A program made the translations under genes and the position numbers. This document shows, in pieces, positions 22,137 through 49,355 of a stretch of DNA of 64,000 nt; within the stretch, counting starts at the first letter, position 1, and every line of letters starts with the position of its first letter. Under the pieces are notes generated by a model, which was given only the letters and a program-made list of their open reading frames with translations, did not search any database and was not told where the DNA came from. Origin of the DNA: Sphagnum magellanicum (lineage: Eukaryota > Streptophyta > Sphagnopsida > Sphagnales > Sphagnaceae); the NCBI GenBank assembly GCA_021904315.1, contig CM038925.1:5272501-5336500 (forward strand). The letters run 5' to 3'.

Positions 22137-22779
22137 GGGTGAAATCATGGTCAAAGGAACGAGGGGTGCCAAGGTAAAAGTCTTTTTCTAACGATTGCAC
22201 TTGACATGTGTCATTTTTGTGTTGGTTTATAAGTTAAAATTTTGTATTTCACATACCACATTTAATACTACATTTTAAATATAAATAAATTGGTTTTATA
22301 TCATGTATATTATGCATTCATGCCTTCTATCATATAAATATGAACAACTTTTTGTTAAAGCCACATTTTGAAAATCCATAATTTCCAAGATGAAAAACAT
22401 TTTTGAGCCAAATGTGTTTAAGTGGGTTATGAAAAAAAAATTCATTAGTTCAAGTCCTTTTGCCCTTCTAATCATCAATGTTAAAATTCTCTCTAATTTT
22501 CAAAAGGAATGGTGCACATTTGGTAAAAAAAATTAAAGACATTTGAAAAAAACAAGGATTGTCCACTTTTGAAGTTTGAGTGTTTTGAACATGTAAAACA
22601 AATTTTGATTTTTTGTCAAGTTTTGAACATGTAAACTTTGCAATTTAATGGAAAATATTCCAAAATATATATAAAAATTCAAACTATTATGCTTCCTTTG
22701 TGATTTTTTAAACATACAAAAATGTAATTTTAAGTAGTGTTCACTCACTTGGGTGGTTCCTTTGATTGTGATTTTACCC
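22137..22779. mobile_element. non-autonomous TIR DNA transposon, 643 bp, TSD CCAT (copy X1)
   Basis: The left end GGGTGAAATCATGGTCAAAG mirrors the right end, whose reverse complement begins GGGTAAAATCACAATCAAAG. The four differences are all transitions. CCAT flanks both ends (22133-22136 and 22780-22783). The whole length aligns with the element at 46273-46908, sharing words such as GCACATTTGGTA and CATTCATGCC, which fixes the boundaries independently. No transposase frame is present. Many substitutions separate the two copies, so the family is not young. Confidence 0.82.
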
Positions 22780-23302
22780 CCATGTCAATTTTAATTATGC
22801 ACATGAAAATCATAAATTTTCTATTTTACTTTTGCAATTTTAAGTTGAAAATATATCATGTGCAACATATTTCATGCTTGGGGCCCAAGGGAAGTATAAG
22901 TGAGTATAAATATAGGGGTCACATATATTAGTTATTAAGTGAAAATTATAATTTAATTTATATTTATTTTGAAAACTAATACATATTTAATATAAGATAT
23001 GTATTAGTCTTGACATTTCAAATATATAACACATGTGTTAAAATTTTAAATATTAATTATTTGTAAGTTCAAATTAGTAAGTTAGTAAATGAACTAGTAT
23101 TAGTAAATGGGCTAGTAATCTTGAACATGAAGGAATGCAAAATGAAGGATCCTTTCATGCACCACTAGTGGGTGCTCGTGACCTTCGGCCATTGTGAAGT
23201 CCCCCGGTTTCTTTAAACTTGGTTCGCGTTTTAGGTTTTTTTAAAAAACTTTTAACTTTTTTTTAAAAAAAATTTATGTGTTTTTTATTTTTATTATTAT
23301 TT

Positions 23303-23700
23303 TGTGATCATCCAGTCGGACAGACATTTCATCCATCCCCTTAATTGGGACGGATAGTAGCTAAAAGAAAAAAAGCTTCCCCAAAATTCGTCCCGTCATC
23401 AAGCCGGACGGACATTTCATCCATCCCCTTAATTGGGACGGACAGTAGCTAAAAGAAAAAAAAGGTAGTCTTGGTCAATACAAAAAAAAAAAAAAAAATT
23501 GATTATGGGCTGTCCAAGGCCTAAATATTTTTTTTCTGGTCTTCCCCTAAATCCGTCCCGTCATCAAGCCAGACGGACATTTCATCCGTCCCCTTAATCG
23601 GGACGAACAGTAGCTAAAAGAAAAAAAAGGTAGTCTTGGTCAATACAAAAAAAAAGAAAAAAAAAATTCTAGGCTATCCAAGGCCTAAATATTTTTTTCT
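23303..23700. repeat. 165-bp tandem repeat, about 2.5 units
   Basis: The block CGTCCCGTCATCAAGC, GGACGGACATTTCATCC, CCCTTAAT, GGGACGGACAGTAGCTAAAA starts at 23389 and again at 23554, a 165-bp period. A shorter first copy starts near 23303. Each full unit also carries GGTAGTCTTGGTCAATAC, a poly-A tract and TCCAAGGCCTAAATATTTTT. Retention of CpG (CGGACGG, CGTCCCG) suggests it is younger than its surroundings. Confidence 0.78.
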
Positions 23701-23870
23701 GGTCTACCAAATCTTTTGCCTCAAAAAATCAGACTGCCCCTGATTTCTTTTTTCTCTGGAGTCAGTTACATCTGGGGAAGCTCCACAGGGAACATGTAGT
23801 GACTGGAAGAATTTTTAGGCACTGCCCACACAAACAGACAAACACCACTATTGCTTTAATATATAAGATG
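23701..23870. other. probable 3' part of the element carrying the 165-bp repeats
   Basis: Sequence right of the tandem units is less AT-rich and ends in CACTATTGCTTTAATATATAAGATGG, after which typical AT-rich background resumes. A matching change in composition on the left is at about 23160 (GGGTGCTCGTGACCTTCGGC). Together 23160-23870 looks like one inserted element, but no termini, coding region or family could be assigned. Confidence 0.35.
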
Positions 23871-25149
23871 GATACTTGAATGAATTTAAAGAAATTTAAA
23901 TTTTATATGGGTATTGTGTTTTGGAAAATATGTTAAATACATATGGTATGTATAAAAAAATAGTAATTTTATCAATGATTTTAACATGTTTAGTTATAAC
24001 TTGTATCTTCATCATTTTCAAAAAATTAAAATTAAAAATTAAAATAAATGTAGGGTATCAATATTTGATTAAAAAATTAGAAAAAAATTAGAAATAAGTT
24101 TTGGGTTGTTTAAATTTGTGCATATTAGAAAAATGAGGCAACAATATGTTGGGAAAAAAGCTTCTTTCACATAATGTCCCCCCAAAATACCAACTTGTAC
24201 AATAAAATTTTAATGTCGTTTAATGTGGACCCTTGAGATTTTATTTTCCATTATGCCATAGTGTACATAATGGATTTGAAACCCTAGTACCAAATTATAC
24301 ATTCCAATGATGATGATTGATTAAAATTGGTTTAGGTAGAATAATTTTAAGTTCCATAACTTATAAATCATAGTCATCATTGTCACTTGGACAATTCCAA
24401 ACAAAAATATTTTCAATTCATTTCCAAATAAAAAAGAATGCACATGGTTTTTAAAAAAGATCTTTGTCTTTACACCATATTCATGAATCAATATTTGATT
24501 TCCACCAATTTGTAATTCAATTATCTTCAATTGAATTTTAATCCAATTGATGAATTGAATTTAGTTGAATTAGAAATAAATTCAATGTATTTGAATTCAA
24601 TTAAATTCAAGTTGCATGTAATGCCAATTAATATTTTCATTCAAATGGAACTTAATTTCAAAAGGTCAATTCATATTTGGTGTGATTGCACCCCCAAAAC
24701 ATTCATGTTGTGTTAGAAATGTGATGGTTGAAATTGTTTAATTAATAAATGGTGGAAAAGAAATAATAAGTTTAAATTTCTTTAGATTTTTAAGGAGGAT
24801 TTGCAGAAGGTGTTACGATAAGTACAAGTTGATGTGCAACTTTACCAACATTGATTGTAGGCCTATGAGATTCCCTTTCTTGCTTCCAATTCATTCCATT
24901 AGTTTTGAGCCTAAAGTCACCACCAGGTGGTCCTTATTCTTAAGCAGGTCATAATGACACTAAACCAAATTTGCCCCAAATTGAATAGGCACAATAAGAG
25001 ACATTAGTGTTTTTTAGGTATACATGCTATCTAACCTCAAAGGTGGTGGTGTTTTTCATTGCATACAACCAATTGAACAATAGGAAAAGTTGGAAGGTTA
25101 GAAGCTACCTTTTCAATCAACATAATTTATTACACCATCATAGACATTG
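23871..25149. other. AT-rich intergenic, no gene recognised
   Basis: No supported gene. Around 24530-24620 the word AATTGAATT recurs, as in the decayed arrays elsewhere in the window. GGTGTGATTGCACCCCC near 24678 resembles the right end of the GGGTG-type elements, but no matching left end was found. Confidence 0.45.
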
Positions 25150-25946
25150 GGGTGTAATCATAGTCAAATGAGCTAATGATGATGAAGGACTCAAGGACTA
25201 TAGTCCTTTTTGTGGTACTTTTCATTTTCTCATAATTTTTTTTTTCGGATGAAATCTTTTGCAATATGTTACTAAAAATACATTTATTTTTTCAATACAT
25301 CAAATTTTTTGTATAAAATTTTCATGAATAACTAAGATTTTTTATAAATTGTATAAATTCTACCAAATGTTTTCATTTCATTTTGACAAATTATCTTAAT
25401 TTTCAAATTATATGAAAATATGTTAATTATTTAATGTTTTATTTTATTTTTTCATAAACTACAACTTTGTTTTAAATTTCATGTACATTACACCCCATTT
25501 ACATGTGGTAGAGGACTTTTGAAAATTTGAAAATTTGAAATTTTTTTCAATAGATTTTTAATTTTTAAAAATTTCAAATTTCATAACTTTCAAATTGTGA
25601 GTGCTTTTTGAGTGTGGATAATCAATTAACATCATCGCAAATTTGTTTTCATCAAAATTTTTATAAAGAGAGTCTTTAGCTTGGTAATTTACAAAATTGA
25701 TTACTTTTGATGCAACTATTGTTCAAATTCAAAGGTCTTTTTTTAAAACCAAAAACCAAAATAATTTTTTTTTGAATCTTTATTTTGAATTCTTCAACAT
25801 CCATATTAATCATTTAACACTACATTCCATGATTAACATAGCATTAAAGTGGCACCACAAAAATATATCTAACAAAATTATAGTTTTTATAGAGTTTTGG
25901 CTATCACCCAACATATTTTTTGGTTCGTTTGATTGTGATTGCACCC
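25150..25946. mobile_element. non-autonomous TIR DNA transposon, 797 bp, TSD ATTG (copy W1)
   Basis: The left end GGGTGTAATCATAGTCAAAT and the reverse complement of the right end, GGGTGCAATCACAATCAAAC, are inverted repeats differing mostly by transitions. ATTG flanks both sides (25146-25149 and 25947-25950). The interior aligns with 30030-30781 and 56430-57179 through shared words such as CATGTACATTACACC and TTTACATGTGGTA. There is no transposase frame. The ends resemble those of the X elements, so the two groups are probably mobilised by related enzymes. Confidence 0.8.
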
Positions 25947-26639
25947 ATTGCAAGAATAAGACCAAAGTATAAATAGAAGGAGTATAACATGTGCCAAAGC
26001 CATGGTATTCTTTCCACCTCAACCATCGCCAATCATTGTTTCATTAATTAAAAGGGGAATTACACATTCTTGATTCACAACAAGTATGAGGAATGGCAAT
26101 TGATGAAAAATAGGAAGTTGAGATTGATGTGTTACAAGATGTTGCATAGGTTCCTCAATAGGAGTAGAGGTTCAAACTTGTGTAATATTACTTTTCATTC
26201 ATGTGTAAGGATTTCGAAGATGCAATCCAAAATACAAGGGAGGTAATGTTAGGAATAGGTAAACAAATTAAGACTAGACAGAAAGACAAAATTTTAGTTT
26301 TAGTTTAGATTTAGACACAATGTGGTTTTTTAAAAAATTCTTGTTCTTTCTTTTCAAATGGGGTTTTGGAAGGAAATGGGGCAACATTTCTTCTTTCTCG
26401 TGTTTTTGTTGTGTATCACTTTTCTTTGCAAATTTTGGTGTTCTAGGAACATTAATTTTGTATGGTAAAATAAGTAGAGGTTATCTTAAAAAAAAGGAAC
26501 AAGAACTAAATATTACAATAACTAAATCTTATCCATATTTGCAAGTAGAGGACTTGTCAAGATTGTTAGTAATGGAACGTTAATAAATATGAAAACTTGT
26601 AATTAAAACATCATTTTGATACTTGTTTTGATATGAATT

Positions 26640-26770
26640 GCATAGAATTAGAGTTAGTACTTACCAAATAGGTTATAAGTAGGTAGGTAGGTTGATGGCC
26701 TACCTAGGTTAGGTAGATTGACATGGAGCTTGCCTATTCACCTACCTACCTACCTAGCTAGATGGCTTGC
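26640..26770. repeat. TAGG/CCTA tetranucleotide-rich patch
   Basis: TAGGTAGGTAGG near 26680 is followed about 60 bp later by its complement (CACCTACCTACCTACC, near 26740), so the strand could fold back. Similar runs occur near 34822-34850 and 27470-27560. Simple-sequence DNA, not coding. Confidence 0.6.
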
Positions 26771-26829
26771 TTATTTATGTTTATGTACCTATGTAAATAG
26801 AGGTCATTGGAAGATGAGGTGAATCATTT

Positions 26830-27440
26830 TTTTTGTGTCACAATGTAGTTTTTTGTAAATTGTTGTGCATTAAGATGACATAAAATTATCATTATATGCC
26901 AAGTTTTCCATTGGGTTAAAATTCTCAACTTGAATGAAAAAAATCTATATTTAAAATTGCAACACATATACACCAAATATAAAGTAATAGACTATTGATG
27001 TTGAAAAATATGGATTATTTTTTTATTTGTGGTTTTATATGAATACCATTTTTTTAATGAAAATTTTTGGGTATATTTTATAAAAACTCAATATAAATGA
27101 TATATTAAAGGAAAAGGAACTTAAGTGCAAAACTTTTGCTACAAAAACCTTAAGTCAAAGAAAATTATGGATTTTAATTTGAATGTTTTGAAATGGACCT
27201 TCTTTTCAAAAGTTCATATCATAATCATTTTTGGATAGATTTCAACTTTTTTTCTTAACATGTATTTTAAAGATTTATTCAATTAGGCTTTATTCACATA
27301 ATTTTTAATAGCTCATTAACCACCTTGTAATCCCCCACTTAAGCAATGATATCATAGTAGATTATCATTTTAGCACCAATGAATAGATTTTATATGGACT
27401 ATTTATTTGTTAGAATTGGTCCACCAATTATCTTGAAACA
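26830..27440. repeat. dispersed repeat Y, copy 1 (without insertion)
   Basis: Aligns with 48480-49745 through words such as TTTTGTGTCACAA, GATATATTAAAG, TTTTTTTCTTAACATGTA and ATGATATCATAGTAGA. Copy 1 lacks the 606-bp element present in copy 2, so it is a paralogous uninterrupted version of that site. Family unknown and no coding capacity seen. Confidence 0.65.
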
Positions 27441-30029
27441 ACCCATAGCATACATACATATTTATGTAAGTAAATTTTCTACTTATTGACCTATTAGCTT
27501 ACCTACTTCGGTAAAATATAAGTAGGTACGTAATAGATGTCTACCTTAACCTCCTAACCTACTAGGACTATCAATTAGGTTAAATAGGTTGTAAGGCCTA
27601 ATTAACTTAACATATTATTAGCTTAGCCCATTAGACCTGAGTACATATTAGGTACCTTTTAAATTTTGTAGTAAGTTTTTTTTTTTTTTTTCCCACACCA
27701 TTTGGAATAAAATGGAAGTGACCTCGAAAATTTTGCAAATTTTTATTAGTTTGAACATTTTACTATTAAGGGTACATAAGGCCCCTCATTTGAGTATTAA
27801 AATTGTAAGCTCCCTATACCCAAAAAATAACTTATAAGGAGATTATAATCATTAGTCCCTTGATAGAAAGCCCTATCATGAAAACCATATAATGTTTTGG
27901 TATAGGTGGATAGTGCCTTGCCTTCATTTTAAAAAAATCATCAACATAGAGGCCACCTTATTGTAAGGACATTGTTCATGTGAAAAAATCTTGTTCTTCC
28001 TCACCTCCCAAACAAAATCATAGCCAAATTCCTTTTAAAAGCAAAACGGTACCATTTATCTATGTCAAGGAATTTAGACTAGGCATTCACTCATGAAATT
28101 TGGTCCTTAAATTATTGTAGTTTCTAAAGGCCACAAAACCTAATGAAATATATATATAAGTTTAATGTAATCATAAGACACTATACATTAATGAAATGTA
28201 TAAAGGTCAACATACATGCCCTCATCAAACATGTATATTTGACCATCTACTGTAAGTTGGATTTGTTTAGTACTTTCTTATGGTTTTGTTTGAAAAAAAC
28301 TAATTATGGTTCCCAATTTGCAAACATCCATAAAGGTTGGGGTTTAAAAATGTGTTTTAATTAATCTTAAGCCCAACCTTGAGAATTCAAAAATGAATTG
28401 GTTGTGTACATGTTAATTTGGCAACAAATTCTTAGGCCAATTGATGAAAATTTAAGAACCTTCACAATATGAAGACCCAACTTCATTGGCTTGACCCAAT
28501 AGTTGCATCATTATTTTCTTCTTATTATTATTCAAATGTAATTGTTGGATGGGAATGATTTCTTAACATGTGAAAGGAAATAAATGGAAGAAAAGGATGT
28601 AAATTTTTTTTCCTCTCACCTTTGTTTTCCTTAGTTCTTTTCTTCAACTTTTCATTGTTGTACTTTTGAATCAAAACAAGTTAGCAACATGGAACGTTCT
28701 TCACAAAGTATTTCACAAGTTAATGATGGCAACAACATGGATGATCATATTTTTTTGTCAAGTGGGTCGCCCACTACTAGTTTTAGGGCATATCACCAAG
28801 GAGGTGTTGTCCAAAGGAGCATATTGTGAATGTTGCTTTCATTTGACCACTACATATTTGAAGTTATTCAAAAGAATGTTGGTGTATATTTTATGAGAGA
28901 GAAATTAGATGTTGAGAATCGAAAGAGAACAACACAACAAAAAATTTAAAGACACAAGAATTTTATGAAGTTCATGTCACAGCCCCACCAATTTTGGAAA
29001 AAAACACACAAAAGGAACATGTAATAAGGTAATTCAAGCTAACAAAAGCCAATAGTGCACCCTTTTGAGACCTTTTGGGAATCATTTTGAATCCTAACAT
29101 GTTGATGTGGTAGCCTAGGATTTGTCAAACAATGTTTAAATTGTGCTTAAATAATGTTAAAGCTATGTTAAAATTTGTGTTTTTGAGGATTGGTTACAAT
29201 ATTTTAGAAGTATATTTGGGTATTTTATACTCAAATTTATTCAAATGTTACATTGATTTATTATAAACATTTTCTATGAATTCATCAAGCATTCATGAGT
29301 TTTGAAATTAATACATGGTTTTAATTATGTAAATCTAAGTAATGATTACATGTTCTTTGGCTCCTTTTAGTTTGAATTTGTCTAATAGGGAAGCTAAAGC
29401 AAACAAAAATGAAAGAAGAACTAGGTTTTGGAGATGACAAGGTTGAAAGTAAAAAGAATTGGAGAAATTTGGATGTGTGTGTGTTGATTGGTTTTCATAT
29501 AGTGAAATGGAGCTAGAATTCATGAAGAATGCGAAAAAAAGGTAAAATTTTTGAAACCTTAAACTCAATTTTTTTTTGAATGCAGTAAAAGAGAATATAG
29601 AAGTGTTAGATTTGCAAAAAGAAAACCAATGGACTGTTCTTTGAAATGTATGGCATAGTGCATACACCTTCAACGAAAATGTAGCATTTAATCATGATAC
29701 ATGGATAATAGTGTACTATGGCATTTGCTAAATTAATGTCCTTACATTTCACTAAAGACTATATGGGATTTGCTAGATTATCCATACATGTATTGGTAAT
29801 TTCAAATATCATGTCTTTTGAATTAAATTTCTCACCTCATAATGATCATAAACTTAATGATACACTTATCATATGGTTATCTTTTTCAACTTTCACTTTC
29901 CATGTAATTTTACTCATAACCATTTTGAAGGGAATATTAACTAATAACTCAATGTTGGTTCCATTTTGCATTTTCTTCGTAACTTTGCCCAATCCATGTA
30001 TCAAAATAGTTTCAAGTTTATTATGCATG
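27441..30029. other. AT-rich intergenic, no gene recognised
   Basis: No supported gene. The open frames at 29335-29673 (minus, 112 codons) and 29718-30059 (plus, 113 codons) have no recognisable domain, biased AT-rich codons and no splice context. Around 28905-29020 a stretch resembles sequences common near plant retroelement ends, but this is too weak to call. Confidence 0.45.
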
Positions 30030-30781
30030 GGGTCAAAACCTACTAATGGGAACCAATGAGATTACTTTATAGAAGGATTATGGGTCATTTTGTAATCTTG
30101 TCACTTTTTCATAGAAAAGATGTTTTGAATGAAATCTCTTACAACTGGTTATTAAAAGTAGTTCTAATCACCTCAATAAATCACATATTTTTGTTAATAT
30201 TTATTGAGTAACTATGATTTTTCCAAAAATGTGAAAATTCTAACAAATCTTACATTTTGTTTTGAAAAATGATTGTAATTTCAAATCATTCCAATACATA
30301 TTAACTACTTTAAGCTTTCATTTTTTGTATTATAATATACAACTTTGTTTTCTATGTCATGTACATTACACCTTATTTACATGTGGTAAAAATCTTTTGA
30401 AAATTTGAGATTTTAAAACACATTTCAAAAAGATTTAAATAAAAAATTTCACAACTTTTAAATTGTGAGTGATTTTTGAGTTTGGGCAATAGGTCATTAT
30501 CATTTTAATTCTTTTACCATCAAAATTTCTTTATTAAAAGAATCCTTTGGCATATTCCTTTACAAAATTGATTCCTTCATAATGCAATTGTTGTTGAGGT
30601 TCAAACTTGTCCTATATTAAAATCGAAGCCTGAAATTAAATTAAATGAATGTTTAATTTGGATTCTTCAACACTCATATTAGTCATTTAACAAAACTTGG
30701 AATGATTATCCTAACTTTTTTGAAGGTTAAAATAAAAACATACCTACTATGGTTTGTGATTTTCAATGAGTCATGACACCT
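30030..30781. mobile_element. TIR-type element, copy W2 (degraded ends)
   Basis: The interior aligns with W1 (25150-25946) through CATGTACATTACACC, TTTACATGTGGTA, TTTTGAAAATTTGA and TTTTACAAAATTGATT-like words. The expected ends are at about 30030 (GGGTCAAAACC) and 30781 (GACACCT), but they are too diverged to show a clear target duplication, so both limits are inferred from alignment. Confidence 0.6.
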
Positions 30782-30839
30782 TTTTTGTAGGGTTGTCATC
30801 ATGTCCATGCATCTATCATGATGCAATGGATGCATCTAG

Positions 30840-31110
30840 ATGAAGACGCATCCTTGTGTCATGTTAATATAGGGTTAGTTTAGGTCAACCTATGGTCAAC
30901 CTAGGTCAAAACATTCTTGAGTTACATGAAGCAAGCTTATGGGTGATCGAAATTAGACCTATTTTAGTTGTTGTAAACCTTGTGGTGATTGAAACACCTT
31001 TTGGTCAAGCCTACAACGATTGAAAACTTTTGGTCGCCATCCTATGGTAATGGAATGTTTTTGGTTGCCATTTGTGTGGTAGCAAAAAAAATTCAGTTGT
31101 TAATCCTTGT
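30840..31110. repeat. dispersed GATTGAAA-unit repeat, copy 2
   Basis: Shares with 2540-2940 the order AGGTCAAA, TTGAGTTACATGAAGCAAGC, TTGTAAACCTTGTGGTGATT and GAAACACCTTTTGGTCA, then repeated ATTGAAAACTTTTGGTCGCC-like units. Non-coding. Confidence 0.6.
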
Positions 31111-31279
31111 TGTGAAATTGGATGACAACACCCTTTGTTTATATAGTGTTCAAAATAGGAATGGAGAATAAATAATATGGGATAAGTTTTGAAATTGCAA
31201 CCTCCTCATAAACTAAGTTGTAACTTCAAAACTTTCTTCAAGTCTTTTGTTCTTAGGTTTTAGATTTATAAACAATTCA

Positions 31280-32099
31280 AGTACATTTCTCATTAGATAA
31301 TTAGATAACCATATAATTAATACTAATTAAATTTAACATATATTTAAAATATAAACTATGCACTACAAATATTAAGTATTCAATATCAACTATTAAAATA
31401 AATAATAATTTCTTAATATTTAACTAAGTAACTATCTAATTATTCACAAATTGTTAATACATAATTCAAAGATAAATAAATAACTAGAATATTTAAAATA
31501 TTTTATTACTTTTTAAATATCTGGTCGAATTGTAAATAATATATATAATATAAAAATAATTTAGTTCTTCTAATTAAAAAATATATTTCAAATTATAAAT
31601 AATGAACTAACAATTGTTAAAAAAAAAGTCTTACACAATTTTAAAAAAAAAACTAGTTACCTTAATTACTATATAATTACATTTATTATTTAAATTTTTT
31701 TTATACTAAATAAGTAATTACAAAATTTGAAAAAAAACCTTAAAGCACTTTATAATAATTCCTGAAACTACAATCATTACAATAATTATTTTAACTACAT
31801 TATAATTTTTCCAAAATTTTTATTTTGATTTAAAAATATAAATTACATATTGTGAATAATTATGCTCAATTAAAAAATAATTATGCATATACTATAATCT
31901 GAAGTAATTACAATGATTTTAAAGTAATGTAACATTAATTACAGTAATTCATTTCTTTCACTATAAGAATATAAAATATATAATGTAAAATTTCTTGTTT
32001 AAAAAAATATTTATTTAAATTTATAATTAGTTAATATGATAATTTATATTTAATTATAAAAGTGATTCTGTATGGATAATTCTAGTAGAAAAAAACCTT
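31280..32099. other. extremely AT-rich segment
   Basis: Nearly all A and T with few G or C, rich in TAATTA, ATTATT and TTAAAA words. No gene, no clear repeat unit and no element ends. Such a segment could act as a matrix-attachment-like region, but that is only a compositional suggestion. Confidence 0.5.
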
Positions 32100-33110
32100 A
32101 AAACTCAATCAATAATTTTCGGAATTGAAATAGTAATTTTAAATTCGAAAAAAACAATTCAGAATTCAAATATTAATTTTTAGATCAAATGAGTCTTTCA
32201 AATTTTAATAAAAAAATTCAGAATTGAAATGTTAATTTTCAGATTCAAATAACTACATTCAAAATTGAAATGTCTAGTTTTAGACTCAATTAGTAGTTTT
32301 CTAAATTGAAATGTTAATTTTGAGAATCCAAAATAAGAATTCAGAATTGCAATTTCAAGTTTCAAATCAAATAAGTTTTTAAAATTTAAATTAAAATCTC
32401 AAAATTGAAATAATAATTGTTAGAATTGAAAAGAATTATTTAGAATTCAAATATCAAATTTTAGATCAAATAAGCTTTTTGAATTTAAATAAAAAATTTC
32501 AAATTCAAATAGTGTTTTAAGGAATTGAAATAGCAAATTTCAGATTCAAATATGAAATTTCAAATTCAAATAATTCTTTAATGAATTGAAATAGTAGGTT
32601 TTAGAATTGAAATATAATGTTTAGGATCAATTTCCAAAAAAACACTTAAATGTTAAAATTCTGACTTGAAATATTAATTTTGAAATTCAAATAGTTTTAT
32701 TTCGAATTCAAATGATTAAACAAAGAATTCCAAAAACATTTAAAATTGAAATAAAGATTTTAAGATTTAAATGCTTTTAATTTTGTAATTAAAAAATGAA
32801 TTCTAGTAGCAATTTTCAGAATTGAAGCTTTGATGTTAATGTTTAAATATAATTTTCATAATTCGAAATATAATTTTAGACTCAAACATATATTTTTGAA
32901 TAAAACTAAAAATTTAAAAAATTCATATTTCAAATTTGAAATTCAAATTTTGATTTTTAGATTTGAATAAAATGTTTTAGAATTGGAACAATAATTTTTA
33001 GGTTCAAATATAATTTTCAAATTGAAATAAGAATTTTTAGTATTGAAATATGAAATTTCAGATTTGAATAATAAATTTCTGAGTTCAAATATTAATTGTT
33101 AGATTCATTA
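32100..33110. repeat. degenerate short-period array (AATTGAAAT / AGATTCAAAT units)
   Basis: About 1 kb built from variants of AATTGAAATAGTAATTTT and TAGATTCAAATAA alternating at roughly 25-40 bp spacing, with dozens of recognisable units. Units are too diverged for a clean consensus, as expected of an old satellite or minisatellite. It follows directly on the extreme AT-rich segment. Not coding. Confidence 0.75.
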
Positions 33111-33508
33111 TTTGAACAATATACATACATACATAGAATTAATATACACACAAATATATATTGATGTTATATGTAATATATTGTAAATATAATTTTAATA
33201 CATACATAAAAATACACCCCTATGTCATCATAAAATACTTTTAGGATGCGACTAATTTGGTGGCTATTATAACTAATTGGACATATCAATATATTCATGG
33301 ATGAAAATAAACCTAAAAACCATCCAACCAATAGGATGAAGTTTTCAATAGTTGCATCATAGTTGTAATAATGACCAAAATAGTTGAAAATTGATCTTAT
33401 AGTTGTAAATACTCCCAAACTTAGTTGTAAACGACTACAAGTTGCATGTAATTGCAAATGGAGTGGTTACATTTTGGTTAATTTCTATTAATGATGGTAT
33501 TTGATGTT

Positions 33509-33720
33509 AGAGGACAAGCCAAGGAAGGTGGAATGCAGGTTTTGCGTCAATGTTATTTCATATTACAAGGATAGAATGCTCTTCCATTCGGGTCATTGAT
33601 ATGATGACAATGGGCAAGTTGGAATTGTAATGTGTTCAAAGGCACATCCACAGGTGAAAGCTTTATTTGCTAGAATGTGGTGAACTTGTCCTTCCACCAC
33701 TAAACAACATGTAAGTACCA
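33509..33720 (+). pseudogene. possible hAT-type transposase N-terminal relic
   Basis: Read on the plus strand this gives PRKVECRFCVNVISYYKDRM followed by LFHSGH, then after a stop YDDNGQVGIVMCSKAHPQVK and ALFARMW. The C-x2-C with following histidines, and the word order, resemble the BED-type zinc finger at the start of hAT-superfamily transposases. At least one in-frame stop makes it non-functional. The rest of the transposase was not found downstream. This is a family guess from short motifs. Confidence 0.4.
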
Positions 33721-33979
33721 ACCCATCTCTTAGATGGGTGAATAGAGGATGTGGCCATTGATGTGTTGAATCTTTTAATGGAAGGAAAATTTGTTTCGAT
33801 GTCTCAAGTGGAAGGGGTTCGAAATTTCACCCCCCCCTTACATATAACATAAAAGGTTTTATTAGATCCATAAATAACACCATTCGAACCTTTCGAGAAG
33901 TTTCATTGCCCAAGGGATTGAATTCAACCAAAAGATAAGATTTGGACAAAAATGGACACTTTGCTACTATTAATGAAAC

Positions 33980-34740
33980 ACCTTGGTGTACTTTCACCCA
34001 TGTTGTATAGACTTTAAAATTTTAATAATAACAATAATATTTTATATTTTGATGTGCCTAATAAATACATTTAAAAAAATTTAAGAATGTGACAATGTTT
34101 CCTTTCCTTGAATCTTTTGGTCAAGAACATAAGTTTGAAACATGTTTTGGTTTTTTTTCTGCAAAATAATTTTATATGTTACTTTTGATGGTATTTTATT
34201 TGATTTTTAAAAATTAACTAGTTGGATTCATTTAATTTAATTATGAATTTGAAAGTTCAAGAACATGATTCTAAAATGAGCCATTGCAATTAAGCCTTTA
34301 AAAAACAAATGCCCACTTTATTTTTATTCAAATAAATAGTTTTGGCCATATACTTTAAGCTACATTGGATAAATGAGAGAAAAAATAAATATAAAATTGT
34401 AAAAAATTTTTAAAAGTAGAAATATTATTTGATCAATTTTATCACTTGATTTTATTTTTTAATGTGGTTTTTAATGGTACCATATAATTATGTTTTTGCC
34501 CTTGAAGGTTGTCAAGACCACCATTAGAACCTAATAGGACAATTGACTTCTTTTCAAAATTGAGTTAAAACTTAAATTGAATGTTGTTGCCTTGTTTGAA
34601 ACATGCTCTAGATTCTTTAGGTAGATAAATACAACTATATTTTAAAATTATAGGCTTGGCCTTACATTTTAGACAAATTATTGCATTTGATTGGTTGCAT
34701 GTGATTAATAATAATTTGTATGCACTAGTGAAACAATCTA
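33980..34740. repeat. dispersed repeat Z, copy 1
   Basis: Shares ACTTTCACCCAT (about 33988) and then ACCACCATT, AATTGA, GATT.TTTAGGTAGAT, CTTGGCCTTACATTTTA and ACTAGTGA, in the same order as 47270-47595. Copy 1 is longer between the first and second anchors. Element type unknown. The ACTTTCACCC word looks like a right end of the GGGTG-type transposons, but its partner was not found. Confidence 0.45.
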
Positions 34741-35037
34741 ATACTAAACCAAGAAAAATAAAATATTGAGTTGAGTGTAATGGAGAAAGAATTGGACCTT
34801 ACTTTAAAACAAACAAGCTAGTAGGTAGGTAGATAGGTAGGTAGGCAAATAGATAGAGCTCCAATTTATTTGCACCAACAATTGAGAGTTCTTGAGATTC
34901 TTGGCTACTTACAAGTTTCTTTAGGGTTTAAGAGCTCCCCTAATCAATCAAGTAGAAATCTGACATAAATCTCTGCTCATCTCATGATTACCAACCACCT
35001 TACAAAAGCAGCCTTTTGGGGGAGTTAATTACATCTG

Positions 35038-35403
35038 GTTGGTGGCCTTGCCTACTGCCAAGGCAAAGGATAACTTGTTAGTGTTTAGATTCATTATAGA
35101 GTATAGTAGCTTAATGGATTTTTATAGGCCCCTAGGTAATAATAAATAATAGGTCTATTATTTTTATATGAGGATTTTTGAAAGATGATATATATTTTGG
35201 CTTGTGTTGAAACTTGAGATTAGTTAAAGAGTTATAATAATATCTTGAAGGATTTTGGTTTCTTTTTTTTTTTAGAGGATTTTTTGATGATTATATTTTT
35301 GCACGGTGAAATATTTGAGTTTCCATAAATTCTTCTTTCTTTTGCCTTATGATACTTTTTTCATGTAAATGGCATGGCCATAGTGTAACATACCCCTTTT
35401 GTT
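35038..35403 (+). repeat. 350-bp repeat R, copy 1 (upstream of the TAR gene)
   Basis: Carries GGCCTTGCC, GTTTAGATTCAT, TAGAGTATAGTAGCTTAA, TTTTTATAGGCCCCTAGGTA, GAGGATTTTTGAAAGATGAT, TTGAAGGATTTTGGTTTCTT, TTTGAGTTTCCATAA and GGC.TGGCC in order. The same order is found at 43290-43693 and 44274-44619, all in the same orientation. GGCCTTGCC near the left and its complement near the right could be remnants of inverted ends, but the shared sequence continues past the right one. Unclassified. Confidence 0.8.
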
Positions 35404-35603
35404 AGCATTGGTTTTGCTTACTAGGTACAATAATTAAGCATATGACTTGCTAATTAAGCATAAATTCAGCATGTATTTTCTTGCTTGCATATGGCTTTTG
35501 TGCAATATGTTTACACCATGGAGAGATCACTTACATTTCTCATAAATGACCTCAGTTCCATTCAATAAAAAACATTGAAGGTATGTTTTGAATTTTGAAA
35601 ATA

Positions 35604-35630
35604 AATAATAATAATAATAATAATAATAAT
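35604..35630. repeat. (AAT)n microsatellite
   Basis: About nine AAT units in non-coding DNA. A complementary TTA run lies near 35957-35977. Confidence 0.85.
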
Positions 35631-35994
35631 TTTTGAATATTCAATGAAATAGAGATGATGATATACATACATATTTATAATGAATTTGGATATTTATAAT
35701 TTTGCGCAATCGCTTATTTTATTCAATAAAGAAGGCTAAATACTTAACATTCATTCCATTTATAAATAGATCATAAAATATTAGTACCCTTGGAACGAAC
35801 CATTGTGTTTTCGGTTATTTTCTTCCAATTTGTTGATCTTGCAAAACTGACACATTTTGACATTTGAAAAACACAAGTTTTTTGGTCTGTCAAATATAGT
35901 GGAAATCATCACCAAAAATAAATCACTGAGAGGTATGTACTACAAATCATGGGGATTTTATTATTATTATTATTATTTTCAATTTTGTGATGTA

Positions 35995-36055
35995 GCTGAA
36001 GTGGTGGTCATCCATAATAGGAATTCAGACAAATCTGGTTATAAAAAGATATGAA
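35995..36055 (-). repeat. dispersed AGCCAAATTTGGCT-core repeat, copy C
   Basis: GATGTAGCTGAAGTGGTGGT, CATCCATAATAGGAATTCAG and ACAAATCTGGTTATAAAAAG, a diverged reverse-complement copy of the repeat at 14159 and 61090. Confidence 0.55.
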
Positions 36056-36401
36056 AATAAGAAAATTTAAGCATCTTTCTACATATGTGTGGCTACCTAC
36101 TACAACCAGCATTTAAAAAAAAAATTTGAATGCGAAATTTTACTAAAATGAGAAAATAAAAAATGAAAAAAGAATATTCTGTCAAAAAATATTCCCATTT
36201 TTTCTGAAAGAAAATTGCAAGATTTCAAAAAAAAAAATTCACCACAAATTAGATCCAGATTTTAGTTTGGTAGCAATTTAAAAATATTTTAAAAATTATT
36301 TAGACAAGTTTTAAAAATCAATCATCAGTTCATTTCATGCTAAATCTCTCTTGGGATGCTAGCCAATGACACAACACAACATCTCTTGGATGGGCAGGGC
36401 C

Positions 36402-36402
<1 letters not shown>

Positions 36403-36426
<24 letters not shown>
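36403..36426. repeat. (AT)n microsatellite
   Basis: Uninterrupted AT run of about 11 units, about 1.2 kb upstream of the host gene. Confidence 0.85.
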
Positions 36427-36434
<8 letters not shown>

Positions 36435-36815
36435 ATTACTAACTAGAACTGCATATACTAGGTCAAAAATTTTAATTAAAATGTTTTTTTTTTCCTGAAA
36501 TTTGGCACAAAAAAAATTCATTGAGAAAGAACAAAAATTGGCTATGCATTAATAATAATTAAGTAAAAAGAATGACATGTTCCCAGCTTCCAAGACTAGA
36601 CTGAAGAAGCTGTTAATTTAATAACCATCTCCTAATCATGTTTTTTGGAACCTTAAACTTATGGGATAAGTAATCCCTACACTCTCTGGTGGTGGTGGTG
36701 GTGGGGGAGTGAGAGTTTGCGTGTAGAAAGAAAGAAAGAAGCAGCCCATGACTTGGGTGGGAAAGAAGTTTAAAGAATAATAAATTACATGTAAAGAAGC
36801 AACCCCTTTTTTATA

Positions 36816-36842
36816 ACACACACACACACACACACACACACA
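36816..36842. repeat. (AC)n microsatellite
   Basis: Uninterrupted AC run in the upstream region of the TAR2-like gene. A (GGT)n patch lies near 36689-36703. Confidence 0.9.
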
Positions 36843-37181
36843 ACTTCTTTAGTGATTTCTTTCTCAACATTCAAGTTCTTTCTCTCTCATGACCACCCCC
36901 TTGCATGATTGACAAGCAAGAAAGCTAGCTAGCTAGCTCTGGAACCAGGGAGCTTAAGAGATGCAGTCCAGTTTTGGAGTATTAGATCTCATGATTTGCA
37001 TGCAGGTGACACTAGAGGGGCTGTGGGTGAGATAATTTCCTATCTCCCCAGAGGGTCTTAGCTTTCTCCCTTCTTTGGTTCTTTTGGGCTGTGTGTCTTT
37101 TGGTCTTTCTTTAGCCTTCCCTTTTGTCTTAGTGTGATAGTTTCGACCATTGATTTTTTATTGGATTTTTGTCCATGTCAC

Positions 37182-37190
37182 TATATAAAT
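37182..37190 (+). promoter_or_regulatory. candidate TATA box of the TAR2-like gene
   Basis: TATATAAAT lies about 420 bp upstream of the chosen start codon. It is the clearest TATA-type element in the 1 kb before the gene. If used, it implies a 5' leader of about 390 nt containing a T-rich stretch and the AGTC-rich repeat at 37511-37557. No canonical auxin-response element (TGTCTC) stood out next to it. Transcript ends would decide. Confidence 0.45.
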
Positions 37191-37510
37191 AAATTTATAC
37201 GTACTTTAAATTTAAGTTGGGGTAGGGATTATTGAAGTAATTGGCTCATAAAAATGAAGCTTTTTAACACAAGTTTGCTAATGATTTTCTTTTTGTTGTT
37301 GTTTGTTTGTTGATGTTTGTTGTTTTTGTTCTTTTCGTGAACCCTCCCTCCCCCCCCCGCCATCATCATCACCATCCAGTTGAAGAAGCTCTTGAAGCTC
37401 AAGATAATATGGAGTTTTGGAGGTTTGGAGTTTTGATTAGTGGATTGCACAAAATTCTAGTGTGAAAATAAATTTGTTTTTGGGGCCCGGGGGTTTTCTC
37501 CCACCCCGGA

Positions 37511-37557
37511 AGTCAGTCAGTCCAGTCCAGTCAGTCTCAGTCTCAGTGAGTCAGTCC
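37511..37557 (+). repeat. CAGT/AGTC-rich short repeat in the presumed 5' leader
   Basis: Repeated CAGT, CCAGT and CTCAGT units make a low-complexity tract about 50 bases before the start codon. It is open in the frame of the gene back to a stop at 37458-37460 but contains no upstream in-frame ATG. Confidence 0.7.
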
Positions 37558-37607
37558 TCCAGAGGAAGGAAAAAACAAAGAAGAAAAAAACAAAATCACT
37601 TCCAGAA

Positions 37608-41344
<3,737 letters not shown>

Positions 41345-42480
41345 CAGAAGATCATACTTAATGCCATATTATTATCTTCAAAAAACCCACTAATCTTTCT
41401 GACTTGGTCAAGAGCTTCCAGCTCAAAAATCCACCCATTGCCATCCCATTGCCAGTTTTGTTTTTTGCTCCCTACTACTGACATTTTTGTTCCCAAAAAA
41501 AAAAAAAACACTTTGGGGGGAGTTTTCTGGAACAGCTTGGAAAATGTGACTAACTTTGCAAGAGGCTAATGACAGACACTATATATGTAGGAAAGGCATG
41601 ATGATCATCTCTTAAGACCTTTTGAAGTAAACAATCTCTCTCTCTTTCTCTCTTGTGCTCTCGACATGATCTCCAGCTGAGTTCTGTGTTTATGTAAAAC
41701 TTTAGCTGAGTTGGAACAAACCAATCTTGGTACAAAATCCATGAAACCTGGCTTGTGGACAATAACCTACTTGAATGCTCAAATTTTGTTTTGAAGGAGG
41801 TTTGCAAACCTATGTCTTTTGCTATTACTTTGATCCCATTTTTTGCAGCCGTGGGTTTCTTAATTACAATGTCAATTGCTTAATACTAGTTTTGCTTCAC
41901 CATGATTCTGTATAAAACTTGCGTAATATGATAATAGGAAACCTTTAGAGAAATGTCATCCTCAGAATTACAACATAGTACCTGTGGCTTACGAACACCT
42001 CTCTGGACATCCTGAGCATATACACTTAACCCTCAACCCTAAACCTTGAGTTTACACTTAACTTGTTGGAAAGAGTTTATAATTCTGGACCCCCCCAAAT
42101 TTGAACTTAAAAAGACCTTGATTTTGCACCTGCCTTCCACTTAGTAGGTTGCGGGAGACTTCAAATGGGTGATAATTTAGTGAGAATTGACTTGAATCAA
42201 ATGGCAGAAAGTGGGCAAAGGTGGTGCTGGTACTTAAGCTTTCTTCTGTATGAAAACTATTAGGCTAAGCCTTGAGAATGTCAAAAAAGAGTGGCCACCA
42301 CGCCCTCTGCACCATGCTGGGATCTGGATTCTGAAGATAATAATTTCTTCCAATTTTCTCCAACTGCAAATTTTCTGAAAAAACATTTTTTTAGCAAAAA
42401 AACCCTGCATGTGGTACTAGGTCATTGAGGATGGTGAAATTTTGAAAAAGAATATACAAGAAGAACATGTAGCAAAGTGA
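41345..42480. other. 3' flank of the TAR2-like gene, no second gene
   Basis: Presumably includes the 3' UTR. It contains a 14-A run near 41496-41509 and a CTCTCT tract near 41635-41652. No further coding region was recognised. Confidence 0.5.
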
Positions 42481-42558
42481 AGATGACCTGCAGTGTGTTG
42501 GTCTGGTATTGGCTTTTGAACATATGAGCCTGGTCCGAGTATTAGGTGTGTAAAGAAA

Positions 42559-42655
42559 TTTCATACCAGCTTGGTCTTGGGTCCTTTTTCAACCTTTCAT
42601 ATCAGCCTGGTCTTGGGTCCTTTTGCAAACTTTCGTACCAGCCTGGTCCTTGTAG
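42559..42655. repeat. 36-bp tandem repeat, about 2.7 units
   Basis: TTTCATACCAGCTTGGTCTT plus GGGTCCTTTTTCAACC starts at 42559, 42595 and 42631 with few differences. It belongs to a wider 42480-43100 block whose phrases (CATACCAGTCTGG, TTGGGTCC, GATACAAGGCTGATATTGCC) recur in diverged form near 57590-57780 and 59285-59340, so it is probably part of a dispersed element. Confidence 0.75.
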
Positions 42656-43030
42656 TGGGTCGAAGGCCCACTTTAGATGGGCTCCTGGGTCCAAATTCCT
42701 AGGAACGAACTTGGACTCATGATTTGAAGCAAGTTGAATACTTGAGTTGTACCATAACTTGGACCCTAGCTTGCATCTTGGTTCTCCAAATCATGAGCTC
42801 TCTCCTTTGAGCTCATTTCTTTATAGTTCTGAACCAGTTGATTTTCCCTTGAAAATCGTGCCACTTTTTGGTATTGGACCCTCATCTAAAAGCCATGGGT
42901 CCTCAGCCAATAGGATTGCTCTAATCCATTGGACCCTCATCTAATGTGGCCCTAAGAGGGTCCTTAGTGGATTAGTATTGATACAAGGCTGATATTGCCT
43001 CAAGTCATACCAGTCTGGTAGGATCCTCAC

Positions 43031-43081
43031 TACCAGTCTTCATACCCCGCACAGGATACCAGTCTTCATACCCTGCACCAG
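43031..43081. repeat. 26-bp tandem repeat, two units
   Basis: TACCAGTCTTCATACCCCGC plus ACAGGA at 43031 repeats at 43057 with minor differences. Same TACCAG-rich family as the 36-bp units. Confidence 0.75.
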
Positions 43082-43289
43082 CCCATATACGAGACCAACA
43101 GCAGAGAAGACACATGCAAGTTGTAATAGAGTTTTCAAGAGTTTCACAACCAAAAAGTCAAGTTGGCTGTGCCCAGGGACAAGAAGTTTAGTTGGCAGGA
43201 AAGCTACTGAAATATTCAAAGAGAGAGATTTCCAAGTCATTTTGATAGCTTTATATGGGCAGTTTAGTTTATAACCAAGGGTTATAGTG

Positions 43290-43693
43290 TATGTGTACTA
43301 ATATATTATTATTATTATATGAGGATTTTTGAAAGATGATTATTTTGGCTTGTGTTGAAACTTATAGAGTTATGATATCTTGAAGGATTTTGGTTTCTTT
43401 GGAGGGTTTGTTTTGAAGATTATATTTTGCATGGTGTAATTTTAATATGGTAAGTAGACAAATATATGAAAAACATTTGCAATTAAAGTTTTATAATTTT
43501 CTTTGCATTGATCAATAGTCTTTGAATATTGAAAAGATTTTGTAGCCCCTTTCTTGGTGCATCTAATATCACAAAAATCACTGAAATTGATTTTTCAATG
43601 AAATACTGAAATTTCCATAATTCTTCTTTTGCATTAAGATACTTTTTAATGTACCTGGCAAGGCCACAGTGTGACACACACATCCCTTGTTTT
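43290..43693 (+). repeat. 350-bp repeat R, copy 2 (downstream of the TAR gene)
   Basis: Shares GAGGATTTTTGAAAGATGAT, TTGGCTTGTGTTGAAACTT, CTTGAAGGATTTTGGTTTC, TTTCCATAATTCTTCTTTTG and GGCAAGGCC.CAGTGTGACAC with the other R copies. It lacks most of the left part and has about 150 bp of extra sequence (43445-43600) between the middle and right blocks, possibly a later insertion. Confidence 0.75.
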
Positions 43694-44273
43694 ACTAGTC
43701 CTTTTGGCTATTTGGAAACCATATGCACATAATCAGCAACAACAACTCCAAAGGTCTCATAACTCTCTGTAATCATACCACTAGAGCAAAACACAACCTC
43801 TAAAGATCTATGTATCCAACTTGAGAGTTGTGGTGGGTACCTAAAGAAAGTACATTGAAAAAGCAGGTACAGACAGAATGTTTTGCCATACCTCTTTTCC
43901 TCTCCTGAGTCCTTCCTCAGTACTCACTTGTTCAATTCCAAAAACCAGAAATTGGAAACTTGGTTTTGGGTTGGGCTGTGTAATAAGAATGAAGTGTTTC
44001 CTAATTTGTTGGGCAACGCAGTACTTTCTTTCAGGGAGGAGGTGGTACTACTTACTTCCTTCCAGTTCTAAAGCTCAATCATTTGGTGTGTCTGACATGA
44101 CAGCAAATGGTGCCTTCTTCTTCTTCTAGTTCTACTACTACCCTACTTGGCTGCAGAGTTGGATTTGTTTCTGAGAGAAATGTACCAAAACCACACACAT
44201 CTTCTTAAACTTCATTTTTTTTTTGGTAGAATTGTTTTTCTGGCTGTTTTCTTCCTTTTGAGTGTGCATTTTG

Positions 44274-44619
44274 TTGGCCTTGTCTCTACCAAGGCAAAGG
44301 TTATTGTGTTTAGATTCATTCTAGAGTATAGTAGCTTAAGGGATTTTTATAGGCCCCTAGGTAATAATAATAGGTCTATTTTTATATGAGGATTTTTGAA
44401 AGATGATATTTTGGCTTGTGTTGTTGAAACTTGAGATTAGTTATAATAGAGTTATAATAATACCTTGAAGGATTTTGGTTTCTTTTAAGAGGATAATTTT
44501 TTGAAGATTAGGTATATTTTTGCATGGTGAAATATTTGAGTTTCCATAATTCTTCTTTTGCCTTAAGATACTTTTTTAATGTAAAATGGCAAGGCCCCAG
44601 TGTGACACACCCCTTGTTA
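44274..44619 (+). repeat. 350-bp repeat R, copy 3
   Basis: Nearly complete copy with all blocks seen at 35038-35403, from TTGGCCTTGTCT to GGCAAGGCCCCAGTGTGACA and CACCCCTTGTT. It lies only about 600 bp beyond copy 2 in the same orientation, so copies 2 and 3 could be a local duplication. Confidence 0.8.
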
Positions 44620-46272
44620 AAGTGAAGTACACATAACTCTGAGGGCCAACTTGTACTTTCAGGCTGGCCCCTTGCTCCAAAACTCTGGCTTCATCATTTG
44701 GTAAATAACTTGGTGCCACATATGACCTTCCACTTGTAGGATAAGGACCAAGAATGGGGCTATTCTACGAATGATGAATATGGGTCCCGTGCAAGGCACG
44801 AGCTCAGCACGAGACCCAGGACCCGAATTCCCAGAACAGCCATGTTCAAGTTCCTTACCCAATGTAAAGATCTTGGTAGAATTTTGTTTTTAATAAATTG
44901 AGTGTAGCAAGTTTATCTGCCTAAGCACGAAGCTTGATAGCTATAAGTAAACTAAACAAAATGCATCATGCATCTTGTGGAGAAATGGACAGCTCTTTTT
45001 CATTTGAGAGTAGAGGATGGCATCTTTTGCGATAAGGGTTGTCCTTTGTTGAGACATAAATTGTATTTTTGTGGTAATTAAGGTGCCCTCTATTTACCCT
45101 AAAAAACATTTACAGGTTCTTTATGCATGTTTCAAGTTCTTTTTCTTTTTGTTCAATTTTATGATAGAGCCAAAACTTCAAAGTGGTGATCATCATTCAT
45201 AAGAAGATTGAAGCCAAATTTGGCAATAAATGAGATATGAAAGTTTTGAAAAATTTCCGAAGTAAATTAAGTCAATTTATAAAATTTTGCACTTTTTCAT
45301 AGTCCTAAATGCCCAATGTCCAGGCTCTAATAACAATCCCTACAAATCAATTAAGGGGTGATCTATAATTTGATATTACTTGCTACATAAAAAGCCATCC
45401 AATTCTAAGAATTGAATCTTGTATCACCACCACTAGTTTGTTTGCATGTTTGAACTAGGAGGCTATTGTAATAAGTGAGCACTATTAAGAATCAAGTAGG
45501 AGTTGCTAATGTGTGCTCAAGAACTTGCATACACCAATGTTGGGTGGCTTTCCTTTTACTCAAAGAAAGAATCGACGAGTGAAGGTTGGATATTGCCAAC
45601 TTTTGTCAATAATTTTGTGAAACCCATTGATTTTTGGCTTGTTTGCTTTTCAAAGAACTTGGAACTAGAGTGAGTAAAAGTATGGTTAGATGGTTCACTT
45701 TTGATTTTGTGAGCCTATTTTTAACACTAGCTTATTTAACTTGTATAGTAGAATAATTCACAACTTATGCATGAATATACACCTATGTTTCCATTCAAAA
45801 ATGTGGGTAATCCCAAGTTTGTATGCAATTAGACCTATACTTGGTTTAAAAATACATGTAAAAAGATGAAGTTTTGAATGAAAAATGGCTTAATGAGACT
45901 TAATAAAATAATGTTCAATTAATAAAATAAAATGAAATCTATAAAGAATGTTTCAATGCATGTTACTTTTTTAAAACCTCATTTGATATTGTTCTATTTG
46001 TAAAAAATAAAAAAATTGCCCCTATTATGTCAAGAAAATTTGCAAGTTAAAATATAATATTCCTAATTTAGGTTTGTAGGATAATAGGGTTGAAGAAATC
46101 ATGTTCCTCAAGGTACAAGAACTCAAGGAACGCCATAATTTTTTATGGAAATCAAAAATACTAAAGGTTTCATCTTTTTTAACAATAGCCACTACAAACA
46201 TATATTATTTCACAAACCCTACAAACAATAATCAAAATTACTTTTGGTCCTTGGATGAGTACTTTTCTTAAT
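44620..46272. other. intergenic; dispersed core repeat near 45.2 kb
   Basis: No gene was recognised. At 45175-45240, CAAAGTGGTGATCATCATTC, AAGAAGATTGAAGCCAAATT and TGGCAATAAATGAGATATG form a reverse-complement copy of the repeat at 14159 and 61090. The rest is AT-rich. Confidence 0.5.
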
Positions 46273-46908
46273 GGGTGAAAACACAATCAAAAGCGTCAAA
46301 GTAAAAATCCTTTTCTAAGGATTGCACATGACATGTGTCATTTTTGTGTTAGTTTATAATTTTAAAATTTGTATTTCAAGTACCCCTTTTAACACTACAT
46401 TTTAAATATAAATAAAATTTGACTAAAAATTGATTTTATATCTTTTATATTATGCATTCATGCCCTCTATCATATAAACATGAACAATTTTTGTTAAAGG
46501 CACATTTTCAAAATCCATATTTTTCAAGGTCAAAAACACATTTGAACTAAATGTGCTCAAATCAGTTATTAAAAAAAATCATTAGTTCAAGTCTTTTCTC
46601 TCTCATAATTATCAATGTTAAAATTGTTTCCAATTTTTATAAGGAATGGTGCACATTTGGTAGAAAAAAAGGATGTTTGAAAAAAACAAGGACTATCCAT
46701 TCTCAAGGTTTAAGTGCTTTTAACATGCAAAAACATTTTTTGTTTGTGTCAAGTTTTGAGCATGTAAACTTGGCAATTAAAACATATTCCAAAAAATTTA
46801 TGACAACCCAAATTATTATACTTCACTTGTGATTTTTCAAACATACAAAATCATTGTTTTAAGGAATGTCCACTCACTTGGGTGGCTTCTTTGACTACGT
46901 TTTTACCC
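46273..46908. mobile_element. non-autonomous TIR DNA transposon, 636 bp, TSD TAAT (copy X2)
   Basis: Full-length relative of 22137-22779. The left end begins GGGTGAAAACACAATCAAAA and the right end, reverse-complemented, GGGTAAAAACGTAGTCAAAG. TAAT flanks both sides (46269-46272 and 46909-46912). The different target sequence from X1 (CCAT) shows the 4-bp flanks are true target duplications and not part of the element. No coding capacity. Confidence 0.83.
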
Positions 46909-48749: not shown

Positions 48750-49355
48750 AGGTGAAAGCACGGTAAAGTAAGCAAAAAAAAAATCCTATAAAAGTAATCA
48801 CAATCACATTTATGGCATAAACATGAAAAAACGTATTCAAAACTTCTTTAACTTTCATATTAAAGCAATGGTGCATTCCATTGAGTTTATGGTTAACTAC
48901 ACATAAAGTTTGAAGAATTTTATTATTAAAAAAAAGGATGAAAAGTATGTTCTAAACTGACTAGGTTTTCAAATTTTCAAACATACTTTTATATGAAAAA
49001 TTTAATAGATTATGACTATAATATGAAAAAATTTAAACACATTGATACATATTAATGTTTCATCCATTTAAAAGTTTAAAAGATCCAATTACAAGTGTAC
49101 ATTCATCATACTTTCATATACTTGTTCAAAAGTGGGACATATACTTTCCTGTACTCATATTTTATTGAATGTACTTAAATGCATATTAAAACATGTAATC
49201 TTTTAATATTATTCAATGAAGTCAAAGAACTTCCTTTTATTGATCATTAAAATAAAAAATATTCATGAGCTCAATGTATTAAGGCTTAATTTATGGATAT
49301 TTTCCATAAAAAAATCAAGTATCCCTCATTGGCATACTTTACCATGTTTTCACCC
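48750..49355. mobile_element. nested non-autonomous TIR DNA transposon, 606 bp, TSD TTTA
   Basis: Inverted ends: AGGTGAAAGCACGGTAAAGT on the left and, reverse-complemented, GGGTGAAAACATGGTAAAGT on the right. TTTA flanks both sides (48746-48749 and 49356-49359). It interrupts repeat Y, whose intact copy lies at 26830-27440, so insertion is inferred independently of the termini. The left terminal G appears mutated to A. There is no transposase frame. The ends closely resemble those of the X elements. Confidence 0.82.

Follow-up and report, generated by a model that had tools for sequence, protein, structure and literature searches.

Inverted-repeat elements of the window

The stretch of DNA studied here, a window of 64,000 bp of the peat moss Sphagnum magellanicum (assembly GCA_021904315.1, contig CM038925.1, positions 5,272,501 to 5,336,500 of the forward strand), carries a set of short elements with terminal inverted repeats (TIRs) of GGGT type, most of them flanked by target-site duplications (TSDs) of four bases. 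Four of these elements, starting at 22137, 25150, 46273 and 48750, had been reported as one family in an original prediction made from the letters alone. Their ends, lengths and 4-bp flanks were recovered as claimed by direct reading and with a script; the fourth was named in the title of that prediction, although it lies beyond position 46908, where its interval ended. All four stand, but they are not the only ones in the window (Table 1), which also contains two further TSD-bearing elements (6099 and 48465) and four decayed relatives (7273, 26801, 30030 and 56430) found with a profile of the ends and by comparing the window with itself. The same procedure revealed three isolated right ends (33999, 47284 and 50068). 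The ten elements sum to ~6.7 kb, about one tenth of the window, several of their ends being approximate. As 48750-49355 is contained within 48465-49746, one element has inserted into another.

Table 1. Inverted-repeat elements in the 64-kb window (all on the + strand)
Element	Family	Position	Length (bp)	TSD or flanks	Remarks
Element 1	A	22137..22779	643	CCAT	TSD at 22133-22136 / 22780-22783
Element 2	E	25150..25946	797	ATTG	
Element 3	A	46273..46908	636	TAAT	
Element 4	H	48750..49355	606	TTTA	First base A for G; nested
Outer element	F	48465..49746	1282	TGAA	Length includes the nested 606 bp
Additional element		6099..6705	607	CATA	TIR begins GGGTGAGTG
Probable decayed element		7273..7888	616	AGTT / AACT	No direct repeat
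Decayed paralogue of outer element		26801..27433		ATAG / TGAA	No nested insertion, no TSD; right end approximate
Decayed copy, 25150 subfamily		30030..30805		Possible TSD CATG	72% over 653 aligned bp; right end approximate
Decayed copy, 25150 subfamily		56430..57179		Possible TSD TGTT/TGTC	Ends approximate

In the six TSD-bearing elements of the window, 15-20 of the 22 terminal bases match in inverted orientation. The shared TIR extends over ~26 bp, and the consensus of 46 ends, GGGTGAAAGCAAGGTAAAATGAGCCA, is strongest at the initial GGGT, C10 A11, T15, G21 and A26. The Repbase rule, as given in PMC4455052, assigns elements to one superfamily when their TSDs are equally long and positions 1-11 of their ends differ by one mismatch at most. 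The ends of the four named elements, namely GGGTGAAATCA, GGGTGTAATCA, GGGTGAAAACA and, for the right end of 48750, again GGGTGAAAACA, are linked by a chain of such comparisons, which places the four in one superfamily; 6099 and 48465 fall outside the rule when compared with them. The single family proposed originally thus holds for the terminal repeats, which are common to all four elements, but not for their sequences as a whole, which divide into at least three subfamilies. The families have common ends and sometimes common inner patches, as seen in L013:5960-6625, and are otherwise dissimilar. An alignment of 22137 with 46273, covering 623 bp, shows 80.7% identity, and L010:1031-1689 is an inverted relative of 22137 (71.6%).

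In agreement with the original prediction, the elements do not appear to encode proteins. The longest stop-free frames of 22137, 25150, 46273 and 48750 comprise 81, 86, 93 and 67 amino acids, and the longest per element ranges from 45 to 107 amino acids over 17 elements. The three frames of at least 85 amino acids that overlap 25150, 46273 and 48750 had no match in Pfam (the 81-amino-acid frame of 22137 was left out) and belong to a set of 30 scanned frames, out of the 51 of that size in the window, none of which gave a Pfam match under E 0.01; four further scanned frames are those of an alliinase-type gene. Rfam yielded no match at gathering score. Copies differ from the majority sequence of their family by 7.1-12.9% in family A (22 copies) and 5.0-11.1% in family B (15 copies), with a transition/transversion ratio of 2.4, which implies that decay has been under way for some time. 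In the window as a whole, the CpG ratio is 0.23, a low value.

Another inverted repeat of the window, 76 bp long and 71% complementary between 24599-24674 and 47623-47698, lies close to a further GGGTGCAATCACA end at 24693 and possibly represents another decayed pair of related elements.

Dispersal and target-site duplications

We searched the assembly from which the window comes (438,994,042 bases in 31 contigs) with elements 22137, 25150 and 48750, scoring only the best 40 candidates for each. Element 22137 yielded 41 other matching pieces at 82-86% identity (best 40 of 943 candidates). For 25150, 32 of the 40 scored matches, itself included, run from position 1-4 to 795-797 (best 40 of 1382), and for 48750 36 of 40, again counting the element itself, run from position 1-4 to 602-606 (best 40 of 472). 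Each of the three is therefore a dispersed multi-copy family with sharp boundaries. Three terminal patterns were found 182, 22 and 705 times genome-wide, with positions known for about the first 100 among the matches listed for two of them, and their reversed controls never. Matching ends are thus present elsewhere in the genome, an absence of which the original prediction had named as grounds for abandoning it.

The length of the duplication was measured in three overlapping samples. The first consisted of 22 family-A copies (the best 20 of 39 other long matches plus the two window copies), the ends of which were set by terminal sequence alone: ten have an exact 4-bp TSD and ten a TSD with one mismatch. 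The per-base match reaches 0.80 for four bases, against 0.50 for a single base and 0.25-0.34 for all remaining lengths up to 10. The second, family B, was assembled from the query L025:5251-5863 and 17 loci; an exact 4-bp TSD flanks 8 of the 15 copies kept, and the per-base match is 0.83 at length 4 versus 0.19-0.38 at other lengths. The third comprised 49 pairs of ends chosen in all fetched sequence by the end profile alone, each with a single candidate partner 350-900 bp away. Here the 4-bp TSD is exact in 30 pairs, retains three of four bases in 14 and fewer in five; the per-base match is 0.87 for length 4, whereas lengths 1-3 and 5-10 give 0.27-0.35. The differing tetramers are accordingly target duplications, as had been argued, and the 4-bp length, which the original prediction wished to see examined over many copies, holds in these samples; in the 49 pairs, no other length up to 10 rises above background, so that a different duplication length, the second ground for abandoning the prediction, did not emerge either. 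The insertion sites show a symmetrical preference: of the TSDs in 29 exact pairs, none begins with G and none ends with C.

For the nested insertion, a paralogue of the outer element offers an empty site. When the inner element and one TTTA are deleted from the outer copy (48465-49746), the latter aligns without gaps to 26801-27433 across the junction, as a 4-bp duplication would predict. The two are only ~69% alike at this place, which explains why the paralogue does not preserve the tetramer.

Among the family-B copies, L043 (C12:18235020) and L044 (C12:18328480), ~93 kb apart, have in common the TSD ACTT, inner inserts and ten bases of left flank, and their right flanks diverge beyond the tetramer; they are possibly a duplicated locus.

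Mobilisation and superfamily

These elements are non-coding, dispersed and multi-copy, with TIRs at their boundaries and a TSD of fixed length, which are the attributes of non-autonomous TIR transposons. We regard them, with high confidence, as DNA transposons similar to miniature inverted-repeat transposable elements (MITEs), with 4-bp TSDs and mobilised by a transposase encoded elsewhere. As no autonomous copy was found, this dependence in trans on an outside transposase is the part that we infer. Such a transposase would bind the shared ends and excise the element, both 3' ends would be joined to the target strands at positions 4 bp apart, and repair of the staggered gaps would leave the 4-bp duplication. 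Each family may have arisen by amplification of a short master copy, its copies decaying thereafter. With Tourist, Stowaway and other MITEs they share a short, non-coding, TIR-bounded, multi-copy and AT-rich constitution, whereas the duplications of Tourist and Stowaway are 3-bp or TA instead of 4 bp.

Several observations weigh against this interpretation. Neither an autonomous copy nor a transposase was found between such ends. Two of the 22 family-A copies show no matching base in their flanking tetramers and hence no TSD, and three of the 18 family-B rows were dropped since one of their ends matched at fewer than 18 of 26 positions. The end profile that selected the 49 pairs was trained on the ends of elements with exact TSDs, though not on their flanks. 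In addition, 600-800 bp is larger than usual for plant MITEs, described as mostly under 500 bp (PMC10741241) and with group averages of 156-251 bp (PMC12550479). Finally, with no transposase found, the superfamily can only be guessed from TSD length and host lineage.

Our best guess for the transposase, a tentative one, would be the Sola superfamily, because Sola elements make 4-bp TSDs and are recorded in moss. Among plant TIR groups, Sola is the one ordinarily associated with 4-bp duplications; PMC10741241 describes it as uncommon in flowering plants and present in Physcomitrella, with very variable terminal sequences and elements mostly of 2-9 kb; a Physcomitrella Sola1 entry appears in a table of PMC9033089, and AT-rich TSDs are described for Sola2 (PMC3627910). 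The likeness to Physcomitrella Sola1 and amoebozoan Sola2 thus concerns the 4-bp TSD, the AT-rich targets (for Sola2), the TIRs and the moss host, and was drawn from descriptions, not from end sequences; in contrast with most Sola elements, those found here measure 600-800 bp, and no transposase was seen in them. As Sola termini are so variable, our ends neither support nor exclude this assignment, another point that tempers it. Among the matches listed in the open-licence literature, many of them on arthropod mites or other organisms, no title dealt with these moss elements, and a term search of that literature for a published Sola terminal motif listed none containing the motif word.

Rather less probable is a plant lineage of 4-bp-duplicating transposons distinct from Sola, the transposase of which would be undescribed or lost from this genome. 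In its favour, no transposase could be tied to these ends, and none of the TIR-bounded elements seen in 312,011 bp of scanned sequence has a clear coding region. Three pairs exceed 1 kb; two of them are nested pairs, and the third is an expansion of tandem repeats. Nevertheless, this absence carries little weight in a sample of less than 0.1% of the genome, and Sola is on record in moss. The more far-reaching version of this idea, that such a lineage, outside the usual plant superfamilies, filled a sizeable part of the peat-moss genome with 600-800 bp derivatives and that its transposase has died out in this moss or awaits description, seems to us unlikely.

PIF/Harbinger ends often start with GG, a likeness to the G-rich ends found here, and PIF/Harbinger transposons duplicate 3 bp. 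An origin from an unusual branch duplicating 4 bp would be favoured by the decayed Harbinger-type transposase domains (PF13359) that are plentiful throughout the genome (best 150 of 632 candidates scored). However, only 4 of the 49 pairs have an exact 3-bp TSD (per-base match 0.35, near background), and the search of the Harbinger family produced many relics, none of them linked to the ends described here; nor, in the absence of a systematic test, was any PF13359 copy located between such ends. We consider this origin improbable. The hAT superfamily, with its 8-bp TSDs, is disfavoured, as none of the 49 pairs is exact at that length. Other plant superfamilies, as characterised in PMC10741241, are likewise disfavoured: CACTA for its CACTA/CACTG ends and 3-bp TSD, the ends here being GGGT..ACCC and the 3-bp matches near background; Mutator/MULE for its 7-12 bp TSD (lengths 7-10 are exact in 0 of the 49 pairs); and Tc1/Mariner for its TA TSD, the flanks here being CCAT, ATTG, TAAT, TTTA, CATA and TGAA.

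Ginger, which the original prediction had brought up together with Sola, is present in plants and has TSDs of 4-6 bp that overlap ours in length, but the published description (PMC10741241) gives it TG..CA termini and TIRs of 40-270 bp, at odds with the GGGT..ACCC ends and the ~26-bp shared repeat found here, so that a Ginger derivation is very improbable. The wording of that prediction as regards superfamily was nonetheless suitably cautious, and its statements on the sequence proved correct wherever they were tested.

Chance inverted repeats in AT-rich DNA would account for 0.46 such pairs in each 64 kb, to judge by dinucleotide shuffles (23 pairs over 50 shuffles, maximum 2). As an explanation of the entire set they are refuted, and we grant them practically no probability, given the six pairs seen in the window, the genome-wide families with sharp boundaries and the lack of any match to the reversed patterns. 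These six pairs come from a scan for GGGT-type TIRs with a 4-bp TSD, which found none at lengths 3 and 5-9 and five at length 2; ten mononucleotide shuffles gave no pair. A scan indifferent to the end sequence was noisier, with 39 matches at TSD length 2, nine at 3, nine at 4, two at 5 and none at 6-10. Its nine matches of length 4 include 6099 and three of the four named elements, 46273 remaining below the threshold; the remaining five look like chance.

In kind, these elements are ordinary. What stands out is how abundant they are for a plant group with 4-bp TSDs, and that their transposase is missing. Elements of this type occupy about one tenth of the window and are found again across the genome, though Sola has been called uncommon in flowering plants, and their total in the genome could reach tens of thousands, by extrapolation from the six exact cases in one 64-kb window. 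The identity of the transposase would tell whether Sola rose to prominence among the DNA transposons of mosses or whether plants have one more superfamily. Meanwhile, these well-defined repeat families are worth carrying in the genome annotation.

Candidates for an autonomous partner and neighbouring features

Eight loci with near-perfect family-B ends, the interior of which was absent or fragmentary in the family-B search, were fetched as places where a coding partner might lie. Five of them (L047, L048, L049, L050 and L053) proved to be elements of the usual sort, 646-767 bp long and flanked by exact TSDs, and at L051 and L052 no partner was found for the near-perfect family-B end. The last one, L046, harbours a coding relic situated 495 bp inward from a family-B end. 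A DNA search (best 40 of 359 candidates) resolved it into a three-part mosaic made up of a family-B piece (query positions 1 to ~151), a repeat, unrelated and ~195-220 bp long, that starts at 123 or 140 and stops at ~334-344, and a transposase relic (~334 to 748). Among the matches listed, only L046 itself joins the family-B piece to the relic; since no other continues from the B end into it, the relic is a chance neighbour and L046 was rejected as the autonomous partner. A ~550-bp block common to L046 and L052 was likewise discarded as coding evidence, because it matches in all six frames and is thus a repeat.

Starting from the L046 relic, we came to a transposase-like family that is young and multi-copy, with at least 27 full-length places at 94% identity or more, six of them at 100% (best 150 of 528 candidates). 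Its exon (L060:85-474; G000:C6:2054644-2055030) contains a C..H..KAW motif and had no match in Pfam or in PDB. Seven copies probed in short slices did not reach the ends of the element; in three of them shared sequence, with repeats, extends 3.9-4.6 kb upstream of the exon. Pieced together from several copies, the element measures at least about 6 kb and carries repeats. No GGGTG end was seen in the slices of the seven copies, which leaves this family unlinked to the elements described here, and a motif that had looked like its end turned out to recur inside the element. A putative longer member, L013:6-1874 (1869 bp, GGTG-type ends, TSD CCCT), was also rejected, its length resulting from expansion by ACCTACCT repeats.

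Beyond these elements, the window contains a multi-exon gene of alliinase type at 37461-40086 (+), with Pfam Alliinase_C in three of the four frames scanned and EGF_alliinase, below cut-off, in the first; tryptophan-aminotransferase-related genes belong to the same type. At 32077-33120 lies an AT-rich, degenerate array in which the spacings are ~20 bp, ~41 bp or multiples of these values, and at 23288-23663 three related 123-bp units, two of them 94% alike, which start 88 and 165 bp from one another. Elsewhere in the genome, L028:7008-7853 (-) retains a fragment of a Tc5/pogo-type transposase (PF03184, PF03221).

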